Part shown: piece after piece, positions 4,324 to 42,758 of the stretch
How positions within the stretch are numbered: position 1 is the stretch's first letter
How the letters are laid out: the number at the start of each line of letters is the position of its first letter
From: Acidobacteriota bacterium
GTDB taxonomy: Bacteria; Acidobacteriota; Blastocatellia; Pyrinomonadales; Pyrinomonadaceae
Length of the DNA: 64,000 bases
Assembly: GCA_003222895.1 (NCBI GenBank)
Contig: QHXI01000116.1
Coordinates: 1-64,000, forward strand
Direction of reading: 5' to 3'
Position numbers and translations under genes: made by a program
Notes under the pieces: generated by a model
Told to the model about the DNA's origin: nothing
Databases searched by the model: none
Seen by the model: the letters and a program-made list of their open reading frames with translations, nothing else

Positions 4324-4420
4324 GTGTCAGAAGCCCGACCGTGAGGGAGGGCAGCTCTCATAATCGATAGCCGAGTGGTTGCGTGCGAGGCCCTCCCTGA
4401 CGGTCGGGCTTCTGACACTC
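4322..4420. repeat. Large inverted repeat, family A (GTGTCAGAA-headed), between convergent genes
   Basis: Arms 4322-4351 gagtgtcagaagcccgaccgtgagggaggg and 4391-4420 ccctccctgacggtcgggcttctgacactc, 29/30 complementary. Confidence 0.9.
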
Positions 4421-19332: not shown

Positions 19333-19424
19333 CTCTTCAAGACAGTTCCTCGCATTTAGCGAGCATCGAATAGGTGACGCAGACTTTTTCGGGTCGAGCG
19401 TCACCTATTGCTATAATGACAGAG

Positions 19425-19494
19425 GTCAGTTGTCCGTAGTCAGTTGTTAGTGGCGATTCCGAAATCAACTGACCACTGACTGCTGACAACTGAC
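19425..19494. repeat. Word-repeat hairpin (GTCAGTTGTCAGTGG type) just upstream of the RSH gene
   Basis: Arms gtcagttgtccgtagtcagttgttagtgg (19425-19453) and tcaactgaccactgactgctgacaactgac (19465-19494). Confidence 0.8.
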
Positions 19495-19504
19495 GCTTTT
19501 GTTT

Positions 19505-21688
19505 ATGGTTCGGATCGAAGAAATTTGCGAGAAAGTGCGCCGGAATCATCCGCAAGCAGATCTAAATCTGTTGCGGCGCGCGTACTTGTTTTCGGCGCGC
19601 GAGCACCGCGGTCAGAAGCGCGCGTCAGGCGAATCCTACCTCGTGCATCCTCTGGAAGTCGCAAACATCCTTGCTGATATGCGGCTCGATGCAGTTTCGG
19701 TTTCAACCGGCTTACTGCACGACGTCGTCGAAGACACGCTCGCCGACACCCAGACCATTCGCGACTACTTCGGCGAAGAAGTTGCGCACCTCGTCGAAGG
19801 GCTGACGAAGATCGCGCATATCAGCAACGTCTCGCGTGAAGAACAGCAGGCGGAAAATGTTCGCAAGATGCTGCTGGCGATGATTGACGACGTGCGCGTC
19901 GTCCTTGTCAAGCTCGCCGATCGCTTGCATAACATGCGCACGCTTGAATTCCTGAGTCCGGACAAGCGGCGGCGCATCGCGCAGGAAACGATGGACATTT
20001 ACGCGCCGATTGCCCACCGGCTCGGAATGGGAAAACTGCGCGGCGAGCTGGAAGATTTGGCGTTCAAGAATCTTCACCCTGAAGACTATCGAGAGATCAC
20101 GGCGCAACTTGAAAAACGCCGCGCAGCGAACGAGGCATTTCTCAACGAGATTACCGCGGACATCGAGCGGAAGATGCGCGACGCCGAGGTGCCGATCGTC
20201 CACGTCGAAGGCCGCATCAAACGAATCTACTCGATTTGGAAGAAGCTGAACGCGCAAGAGATCGATCTCGATCAAGTCTACGACTTAGTGGCCGCGCGGG
20301 TGATCACTCCTGACGAAATCCGTCACTGTTATGGCGCACTGGGCGTAGTTCACACAAGTTGGAAGCCCGTACCAGGTCGGTTCAAGGATTGGATCGCGAC
20401 GCCCCGCGACAATCTCTACCAGTCCCTGCACACGTCCGTCATCGGCCCAAAGGGCCAGCCCTTCGAGGTCCAAATTCGAACCGAACAGATGCACATGGTC
20501 GCCGAAGAAGGCGTCGCCGCGCACTGGAAATACAAGGAGGGGAAGCGCGGGCCACGCGATGACGATGAGGCATTGAAGGTTTTGCGGTCGCTGGTCGAAT
20601 GGACGCAGGAAGTGAAAGACTCGCGCGAATTCATCGATGCGTTGAAGCTGGATCTTTATCCGAAAGACGTTTACGCGTTCACGCCGATGGGCAAAGTAAT
20701 TCAGTTGCCGCGCGGCGCCACAACCATTGACTTCGCTTACATGATTCACTCGGAAGTCGGCAACACCTGCACTGGCGCTCGCGTCAACGGGCGAATGGTG
20801 CCGCTCCGGACGATGATTCAAAACGGCGACGTCGTCGAGATTATTCGTAGCCAAAACGCGCATCCCTCCCGTGATTGGCTAAACTTTGTGGCCACGTCGC
20901 GGGCGCGCAATCGCGTGCGTCACTGGGTCGCGGATCAACAACGCGCGGAATCGATCGAGATTGGCCGCAAACTTTTCGAGAAAGAGGCCGGGCGGTTCCA
21001 GCTTTCCGTCAAAAAGATGCTCAGTGACAGCAACGGCGATCTGAAACGCATCGCCGGAGAATACGGCTACGGGCGTACCGACGATCTGCTCGCGGCGATG
21101 GGCTACGGCAAGATCGTTCCGCGCAACATCATCGCAAAATATCTGGGCCCGGAAAAGTTTGAAGCGCTCGACAATCAGAAAGAGTCGCGTTTGCGTACGG
21201 GCGTGCGCGCCGTCAAGCGCTTGATCACCGGCGACGACGCGATCGTGGTTCGCGGCGTGGAAGATTTGATGGTGAACCGCGCGCGCTGCTGCAATCCGCT
21301 GCACGGCGAGCAAATCATCGGCTACATCACGCGCGGCAAAGGCGTCGCAGTGCACACTGCGCGCTGCAAGAACGTAAAGCAGTTGATGGTGAATCCAGAG
21401 CGCATCGTGTCGGTGGAATGGGCTTCGAAACCCGAAAAGACTGCGTACGCGGTCAAGCTGCTTGCCAGAACAGAAAACCGCACGGGGATGATTGCCGGCA
21501 TCACCGGCGCGATTTCTGACATGAAAACGGGCATTCGCGACGCGCGCGCTTCAATCGGTCCCGATCAAAAAGGCCGGATCGAAGTCACAGTTGAAGTTTT
21601 TGACGTGAAGCACCTGGACAAAGTGATGAGTTCAATCAAGAACGTTTCCGGCGTGCTGGATGTGGAGCGTTTGCAAGGTGCAGCGTGA
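19505..21688 (+). CDS. RelA/SpoT family (p)ppGpp synthetase/hydrolase
   Basis: HD domain (HPLEVANILADMRLD, LLHDVVEDT, KLADRLHNMRTL), synthetase, TGS and ACT-like C-terminus; ATG at 19505. Confidence 0.95.
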   Translation: MVRIEEICEKVRRNHPQADLNLLRRAYLFSAREHRGQKRASGESYLVHPLEVANILADMRLDAVSVSTGLLHDVVEDTLADTQTIRDYFGEEVAHLVEGLTKIAHISNVSREEQQAENVRKMLLAMIDDVRVVLVKLADRLHNMRTLEFLSPDKRRRIAQETMDIYAPIAHRLGMGKLRGELEDLAFKNLHPEDYREITAQLEKRRAANEAFLNEITADIERKMRDAEVPIVHVEGRIKRIYSIWKKLNAQEIDLDQVYDLVAARVITPDEIRHCYGALGVVHTSWKPVPGRFKDWIATPRDNLYQSLHTSVIGPKGQPFEVQIRTEQMHMVAEEGVAAHWKYKEGKRGPRDDDEALKVLRSLVEWTQEVKDSREFIDALKLDLYPKDVYAFTPMGKVIQLPRGATTIDFAYMIHSEVGNTCTGARVNGRMVPLRTMIQNGDVVEIIRSQNAHPSRDWLNFVATSRARNRVRHWVADQQRAESIEIGRKLFEKEAGRFQLSVKKMLSDSNGDLKRIAGEYGYGRTDDLLAAMGYGKIVPRNIIAKYLGPEKFEALDNQKESRLRTGVRAVKRLITGDDAIVVRGVEDLMVNRARCCNPLHGEQIIGYITRGKGVAVHTARCKNVKQLMVNPERIVSVEWASKPEKTAYAVKLLARTENRTGMIAGITGAISDMKTGIRDARASIGPDQKGRIEVTVEVFDVKHLDKVMSSIKNVSGVLDVERLQGAA

Positions 21689-29760: not shown

Positions 29761-29887
29761 GTGTCAGAACCGGGAGCGGTAGCGACCGGATCATGTGAAT
29801 CTTCTGGTGATACTTCTTATCGCTCGGTCAATATCCTGTTCATATGGAACTTCTTGATCTGGTCGCTACCGCTCCCGGTTCTGACAC
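29761..29887. repeat. Large inverted repeat, family A, 27-bp perfect arms, 73-nt centre
   Basis: gtgtcagaaccgggagcggtagcgacc (29761-29787) and ggtcgctaccgctcccggttctgacac (29861-29887). Confidence 0.95.
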
Positions 29888-40185: not shown

Positions 40186-40541
40186 ATCAAAAACAAGGTT
40201 CAATTAAGATTGAGGAAGGGTAGCACAAAGGCCGCGGTTACAGAACCGGGGAGTCGTAACGATTGGTTTCCCCGTTAACGGTTTAGTTAAGGGTTGAGGG
40301 CGCGCAAATATGACAACCCGGGCCAACAGCCAGGTACAGACGCGATCCGAACGCCGGGCACTGAGGGTGCGTAATAGACCGACAAATGAAGAAGGTTCAC
40401 GTCGGACTTCACACCTTCGGTGCGCCGTCGTTCGCAAGTATGCAGTCACCGGGGCGATGACCAAAGCTCCTTCCTTTTAGCGACTGAGGAGCTTGACTCT
40501 CGTTACGCTCTGGCGGTTCCGATCGACTTAGAGCCAGTCGG

Positions 40542-41681
40542 TCAGGATACTAGATAACCCCATACGCTGACTTTGCGGACAGTCGGGGCCCGGTTGTAAA
40601 CAAACACCTCAACAAAAGGCCCCATTACCGGAAGCCGAGCTATATAGCTACTGATGTTGGGTGGACTGCCATGCCACGAACCACTGCCTGAAACCTCAAT
40701 GAAGTTCGTGGCTTGAGGGCCCGCCAAATTCGCCTCCAGACTGACGTAGCGCCGCGCGCCCATGCCTCCATTAGCGTCGAACGCGAAAACGACGCCTAGA
40801 TCAACCGGCAGTTCGCTGGCGGTGTTTTGGTTGAACTGCACGAAGATATTAATGAAGCGATAGCCGTCGATGCCGGCGTACGGGGGCAAGCTGATGCCTA
40901 CGCTCGCAGGCACCTCATGGTCCGTCATGAATTTTACGACTCTGGTGCAAGCAAGCTCACACGTGTTTACGCCATGGGTATCGACTGGCTTGCGGGTCGC
41001 GACACTCAGAATTTGACCTTGAGCATCCCGGTCAATCACATCCATCCCTCCGGTCGACGTAAAAACGCTGTGTGACGCATTACCGTTAATGTCAGTAACC
41101 GTCAGACCCATTGCCGTTCCTTCAGTGGTGACGGTAAAGCCTGACTCGGACTGGTTAAGGCTAAGCTGGGTGACCAGAAACGGCAGGAAACCGAAACGGT
41201 TGTGGGTCGTTCCTGTGTAAATACCTGATCCCTCAGCACGGTCGCCGGCCTCGCTGAAGGCGACTAATCCGCCGCCGCTATTCACAAAGTTGATTAGCTC
41301 GGCGGAACGGGAATTTAAGATATCCAGCTCGTCCTGTCGCAGCCAGCCACCGTAATCTGACGCAACCACGACCGCGTCATAGTCAGCGAAGTTCACGGTG
41401 GTCAGGTCCAAGGTGGTCGGCGAAGTTGCGTCTGAGCGCGGAGATGTCGGCGCCACAGCAATCTGGCACGGGAAGCCGGCATCGATCATGCCCAGGCGCG
41501 GGTCACTCTGGTCCCCATTTGGATTTCTCAAGTCGGTGACCAACAGCAACTTGGGGCTCGGTTTGTTGAAGGTGACATAGGCGACGGCCCGTTGGATGAT
41601 GCGCCGTGCGCCTGTATTGTTGGCACCTGGTGTATGCGCATGATAATCGGGGTCATGCCCGGTGACGAAAATTCCTCCCAT
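40542..41681 (-). CDS. Orphan protein with GATase-like (ThuA-like) N-terminal fold, unknown function
   Basis: RBS aagagaggagaaacagtATG; KLLLVTDLRN, FADYDAVVVASDYGGW, LINFVNSGGGLVAFSE reminiscent of GATase1-like folds; fold assignment tentative. Confidence 0.65.
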   Translation of the reverse strand: MGGIFVTGHDPDYHAHTPGANNTGARRIIQRAVAYVTFNKPSPKLLLVTDLRNPNGDQSDPRLGMIDAGFPCQIAVAPTSPRSDATSPTTLDLTTVNFADYDAVVVASDYGGWLRQDELDILNSRSAELINFVNSGGGLVAFSEAGDRAEGSGIYTGTTHNRFGFLPFLVTQLSLNQSESGFTVTTEGTAMGLTVTDINGNASHSVFTSTGGMDVIDRDAQGQILSVATRKPVDTHGVNTCELACTRVVKFMTDHEVPASVGISLPPYAGIDGYRFINIFVQFNQNTASELPVDLGVVFAFDANGGMGARRYVSLEANLAGPQATNFIEVSGSGSWHGSPPNISSYIARLPVMGPFVEVFVYNRAPTVRKVSVWGYLVS

Positions 41682-41891
41682 ACTGTTTCTCCTCTCTTGT
41701 TTCTAGGTGAAGTAACGACGAGATGCTGTTTGGGCATCTCTGTTTGCGTCAACGTGAGGACTGCGATACCGGATCGCTGCCAACCGGTTTGGTGTTCCGG
41801 TGGTTACTTCCAGTCGCAACTCTCAGAGCAGACCTTTTCATGGTCTAGCTCGATGTCGGCCAAAGATTTTTATGTTCTATGAGCCGACATC
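41682..41891 (-). ncRNA. Structured 5' leader of five consecutive stem-loops, candidate cis-regulatory RNA
   Basis: Stems (plus coordinates): 41720-41726/41734-41740, 41763-41767/41773-41777, 41783-41787/41797-41801, 41830-41834/41842-41846, 41852-41860/41883-41891. Confidence 0.5.
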
Positions 41892-42185
41892 CGTGCGGAC
41901 AGTTATGGACTAGCGAGGACTAAGGACTTCAACAAAAGAAACTTTGCCTAACGTTCTAATAACTAATACATCGGCCTAACTTGGGACGGCCGAATCATAC
42001 CAATGGGTCCGAACAATGACAAGGTTTGAGAGAGTCTGCAATGTTTCTCGCAGGCGTGAGGGATTATTCTCGTTGAAAAGCTTCGGCTAAGGCCTCTTCT
42101 TCGTCAGGCTCTGATCAATTTCAGCCTTAATGAGTTCAACACGATAAGGTTATGCGACTACAAAACAATGAAGGGAAACAGGCTG

Positions 42186-42758
42186 TCAAAACTCAATCCC
42201 TTTTTGCGCGCGAATGCCGGCCTGAAACGGATGTTTGATTTCCGTCATCTCGGTCACGAGGTCGGCAGCGTCGATCAATTCTTTCGGTGCGTCGCGGCCG
42301 GTGACGACGATATGGATCGAAGGTTGGCGTTCGCGCGCGGCGCGAATGTCTGCGAGCACTTCGTCGACGGCGAGCAGGTTGTAGCTCAGAACGTAAACCA
42401 GTTCATCGAACACCAGCAGATCGTACTCGCCGCTACGAAGTTTTTCGACGCAGAGATCCCAGGTGTGGCGCGCGGTTTGGCGATCCTGTTCGGGATTCTT
42501 TGTGTCCCAGGTGAAACCGTCGCCCATTGTGTGAACTTCGATTCCAAGCTTTTCGGCCGATAGGTGTTCGCCATAACGATCCTTACGCGATTTCATGAAC
42601 TGAATCATGCAGCAGCGCAGATCTTGTCCGGCAGCCCGCATCATTAAGCCAAGGGCGCACGTCGTTTTGCCTTTTCCATTTCCGGTATGAACGATGAGGA
42701 GACCGCGAGTGTTTTCCTGATAATCAGCGCGACGCCATTTGTATTTCCGTTCGACCAT
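42186..42758 (-). CDS. cobO: Cob(I)alamin/cobyrinate adenosyltransferase (BtuR/CobO type)
   Basis: GLLIVHTGNGKGKTTCALGLMMRAAGQ, LLVFDELVYVLSYNL, VVTGRDAPKELIDAADLVTEM; start set to MVERKYKWRR. Confidence 0.92.
   Translation of the reverse strand: MVERKYKWRRADYQENTRGLLIVHTGNGKGKTTCALGLMMRAAGQDLRCCMIQFMKSRKDRYGEHLSAEKLGIEVHTMGDGFTWDTKNPEQDRQTARHTWDLCVEKLRSGEYDLLVFDELVYVLSYNLLAVDEVLADIRAARERQPSIHIVVTGRDAPKELIDAADLVTEMTEIKHPFQAGIRAQKGIEF

Follow-up and report, generated by a model that had tools for sequence, protein, structure and literature searches.

On the minus strand of the 64-kb window analysed here, which belongs to an uncultured Pyrinomonadaceae bacterium (contig QHXI01000116.1), a strongly folding block of about 170 bases (stems at 41891-41720) lies directly before an apparently laterally acquired orphan gene. 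We tentatively read this leader, at a little short of an even chance, as a one-off structured 5' UTR with a passive effect on the stability or translation of its mRNA; a regulatory role is plausible. The block sits in ~500 nt free of genes, between the cobO stop codon at 42186 and position 41682. The first-pass annotation had placed five inverted pairs here, followed by a ribosome-binding site (RBS) just before the ATG at 41681. All five pairs are found where it put them on the minus strand, and the RBS is present in the sequence as AGAGAGGAG (41689-41697, minus strand).

The stems of the leader are real and non-random. The 219 nt from 41682 to 41900 (minus strand) reach a minimum free energy (MFE) of -78.1 kcal/mol, compared with -54.3 kcal/mol for shuffled sequences (z -5.06), and this energy was reached by none of 2000 further shuffles. 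When the whole 64 kb was scanned in 603 windows of 220 nt each, the leader ranked sixth; the five windows ahead of it cover either repeats of palindromic or inverted type (29761 on both strands, 4321 and 19361) or a tRNA region (53121; a tRNA cluster lies near 53.1-53.3 kb). Once repeats and tRNAs are set aside, it is the top structured block of the 64 kb. The initial impression that the leader is unlike the rest of the window thus holds against ordinary sequence and fails against the palindromic repeats and tRNAs, which fold better. A finer folding profile limits the excess stability to about 41696-41915.

A chance origin, or a functionless mutational by-product such as a set of template-switch palindromes, is quite unlikely. 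Template switching can produce short perfect palindromes, and the folding-energy z is fat-tailed across the genome (sd of 1.37 rather than 1 in the 603-window scan), both of which would be compatible with such an origin. It agrees poorly, however, with the outcome of the 2000 shuffles, with the several separate arms that each fold well on their own in shuffle tests, and with the standing of the leader as the best block outside repeats and tRNAs.

Pairing probabilities, taken from a 386-nt fold that begins at the predicted promoter, resolve the RNA model into four domains, P1 to P4, all on the minus strand and followed by a largely open RBS. P1 (41852-41891) is a perfect 9-bp stem, GATGTCGGC/GCCGACATC, closing a 22-nt A-rich loop (probability 0.99; z -6.8 alone). 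P2 (41826-41851) pairs GAGC-U-AGACC with GGTCTGCTC over 9 bp, with one bulged U and the loop ATGAAAA (probability 0.99), and so extends the AGACC/GGTCT pair originally described. P3 (41755-41825) is a long imperfect arm composed of TGAG/CTCA, TTGCGA/TCGCAG, CTGGA/TCCGG and CCACCGG/CCGGTTGG, the last of which has one bulged T, and it shows three G-U pairs on the minus strand; its helix probabilities range from 0.83 to 1.0. These three arms are contiguous, with zero unpaired bases between them. P4 (41720-41740) is a 7-bp hairpin, GAGATGC-CCAAACA-GCATCTC (probability 0.99; z -5.75).

A 151-nt core folds into a compact four-way junction without unpaired linkers (z -5.75), in the MFE structure of which ACG (41892-41894, minus strand) pairs with CGT (41752-41754) as P0. 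This helix has only 3 bp and is missing from the MFE structure of the 386-nt fold, and the closure of P1-P3 by P0 into a perfect four-way junction is a tentative feature of the model. The five separate stems of the first reading are retained in part. GATGTCGGC/GCCGACATC, AGACC/GGTCT and GAGATGC/GCATCTC appear at a probability of at least 0.98; ACCGG/CCGGT is the tip of P3, and GCGAT/ATCGC has a probability of about 0 because its bases belong to P3. Five separate hairpins are obtained only with DNA energy parameters. In favour of an RNA, the minus strand has the three G-U pairs and a slightly stronger fold (z -5.49 against -4.19 for the plus strand; in a second comparison, -5.06 against -4.71), an advantage too small to decide between RNA and DNA. 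This small strand preference counts against a structured 5' UTR, as it makes DNA-level palindromy nearly as good an account.

The genomic context of the leader is that of an insertion. Its upstream neighbour is cobO (PF02572, E 6.6e-65) and its downstream neighbour accD (PF01039). The cobO-to-accD alignment gap measures 68 nt in congener G006 and 61 nt in congener G005, compared with 2012 nt in the window; leader and gene therefore constitute an insertion of ~1.95 kb (40232-42185, ends approximate). Its right boundary is marked by a TTTGTGCTA[AC]CC motif (40219-40232), located about 80 nt upstream of accD and kept in congeners, which is perhaps the accD promoter. The same slot holds a 128-aa orphan gene and a 246-aa membrane-protein-like ORF in congener G001 (L070), and some 0.2 kb that include an Acido-Lenti-1 element in congener G002 (L071). 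These differing insertions suggest that the cobO-accD spacer is an insertion-tolerant site.

The main rival explanation follows from this context. The leader might be a relic at the DNA level, hairpin-forming DNA of the inserting event or element (an element end or a recombination site) that has no function as RNA. We regard this as possible, if rather doubtful. It is consistent with the position of the leader within an insertion, in a slot that carries other foreign or palindromic sequence in G001 and G002, with the strong folds that the plus strand and DNA parameters likewise give, and with the presence of other palindromic elements in the window. The leader lies, however, inside the insertion and not at its boundary, no transposase or integrase gene is found within the insertion, and several different arms take the place of one terminal inverted repeat. 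Moreover, the leader is single copy in its own genome, and DNA similarity searches of that genome, 97 relatives (by BLAST), phages and plasmids returned only chance-level matches of 16-49 nt. A dispersed palindromic repeat or MITE was rejected on the single copy, and an integron attC site was rejected as no RYYYAAC...GTTRRRY pair of R-sites 40-170 nt apart occurs in the island on either strand.

The orphan gene (40542-41681, minus strand, 379 aa) is a chimera of two unrelated parts by sequence comparison, a ThuA/GATase-like module (residues 1-234) and a member of a separate stand-alone family (residues ~236-379). Its earlier description as an orphan GATase-like gene fits the first part, for which Pfam offers no more than a ThuA match below threshold (E 0.019), and does not extend to the C-terminal third, an unrelated uncharacterised family. 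For the N-terminal domain a single relative was found, embedded in a giant coding region: residues 2-234 show a 57% match to one domain inside a 3973-aa frame in G081. This frame (L091 9758-19000, C88) encodes a giant secreted-looking PKD-repeat protein, the PKD-like repeat type being judged from sequence, with an embedded ThuA/GATase-like domain; the window gene has that domain without the repeats. The C-terminal part (40542-40976) belongs to a stand-alone family of ~145 aa (60-76% identity) found in Pyrinomonadaceae, Syntrophobacterales and Saprospiraceae, as well as in further genomes of the phyla of the last two, a distribution that suggests lateral transfer. The family displays a highly conserved core, SWHGSPHN...PVMGP..EVF.YNR, and has no Pfam, NCBIfam or PHROG name. 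The idea that the gene came from a phage or a defence system was rejected, as no match was obtained. Because the predicted protein structure has a mean pLDDT of 55, its Foldseek matches (top matches jelly-roll capsids, TM below 0.25) were left unused.

A sigma-70-like promoter with an extended -10, TTGTCA-17-TATGAT, is predicted at 41994-42022 on the minus strand (10 of 12 matches); this is a consensus match only, and about one such site is expected in the region by chance. From a predicted start at about 41987, the 5' UTR would measure ~306 nt, and the stems, lying downstream of the promoter-like site, would be transcribed within it. No further minus-strand promoter is predicted between the stems and the ATG. 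The leader is thus plausibly transcribed together with its gene, and it displays the better-than-chance fold between a (predicted) promoter and a start codon that is the generic mark of a structured 5' UTR. A possible upstream ORF of 30 codons (41749-41841, minus strand, MKRSALRV...SSR) starts in the P2 loop without a strong RBS and is probably due to chance.

No intrinsic terminator or anti-terminator is predicted in the leader on the minus strand; P4 has no T tract after the hairpin and is not reported by terminator prediction. The predicted ensemble likewise contains no dominant RBS-sequestering helix, and the A-rich RBS has no single partner above about 0.26. As terminator and dominant RBS partner are both missing from the predictions, no usual expression platform is seen, which argues against a classical switch. 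A ligand- or protein-responsive cis-regulatory RNA, either a new riboswitch or a protein-binding leader, that controls translation of the orphan gene is accordingly a reading we hold to be unlikely. The fold, with its several arms, its junction and its high-probability helices, would suit such a role, as would the UCCUC on the 3' strand of the P3 helix TGAG/CTCA (P3a), the complement of GAGGA in the RBS; a possible switch would exchange P3a for this pairing. This alternative comprises 5 bp, however, and RBS sequestration by UCCUC was rejected as it is not among the leading pairings of the ensemble. Further points against a switch are that no conservation was found and that nothing in the annotation of the orphan gene, be it metabolism or transport, hints at a ligand. 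CsrA, a possible protein regulator, was missing from the genome (96% complete) in a search that gave matches in control genomes, and a CsrA-regulated leader was rejected.

Searches for relatives place the leader outside known families. Rfam gave no relevant match at the gathering threshold or even at E<=10. A covariance model (R1) retrieved no relative from 119 family genomes, from a 396-genome phylum sample or from the loci of C-terminal-family homologues; as R1 derives from this leader alone and stricter filters were applied in the large searches, these results apply to close rather than diverged relatives, which could be missed. Per genome, the lowest E-values were 0.0126 and 0.06, which is chance level over hundreds of genomes. 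In G081, the N-terminal domain is preceded by coding sequence and therefore cannot carry a homologous leader. No homologue means no covariation, and selection for the fold is hence unproven, a point against the favoured 5' UTR. We consider it very unlikely that the leader represents a new class of cis-regulatory RNA, in which a linker-free four-way junction and a hairpin would be carried as a unit with the transferred gene and control its translation, with other members in unsampled genomes or metagenomes.

The one-off structured 5' UTR that we favour can be pictured as follows. Transcription would start upstream, at the predicted start, and the RNA would fold into the abutting arms P1, P2 and P3, which P0 may close into a four-way junction, with hairpin P4 ending about 22 nt before the RBS. 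We infer a cis effect on the mRNA to which the leader belongs, and most likely a passive one: the leader would shield the 5' end from nucleases and keep the RBS free of upstream pairing, rather than work as a ligand-operated switch. It may have come with the laterally acquired gene or arisen in front of it.

Strong intergenic folding is common to the leader and to the palindromic elements of the window with GTGTCAGAA ends (4324-4418 and 29761-29887). In contrast to the leader, which is built of several unrelated arms and lacks these ends, each of these elements is a single long inverted repeat. The two share GTGTCAGAA / TTCTGACAC ends around different interiors, fold more strongly than anything else in the window (z -6.7 and about -9) and probably represent a MITE- or REP-like family. 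Another intergenic inverted-repeat region with a strong fold (z -6.2) lies at 19385-19515. The Acido-Lenti-1 RNA (RF01687), which occupies the same cobO-accD slot in G002, is described by a 46-nt model that has no match in the window leader. Orphan riboswitch candidates and structured 5' UTRs discovered in intergenic regions (e.g. PMC6429828) resemble the leader in being long, folded and placed ahead of a single gene, and in lacking an Rfam match. In that survey of intergenic regions, candidates were ranked by representatives and a consensus model, and regions without homologues were left 'unnamed' (PMC6429828). The present leader would fall among the latter, and the same restraint is apt; at present it is a well-defined single-sequence candidate. 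If functional, it would be a case of a structured leader that moves along with an orphan gene acquired laterally, and such genes would be a place to seek new RNA regulators.
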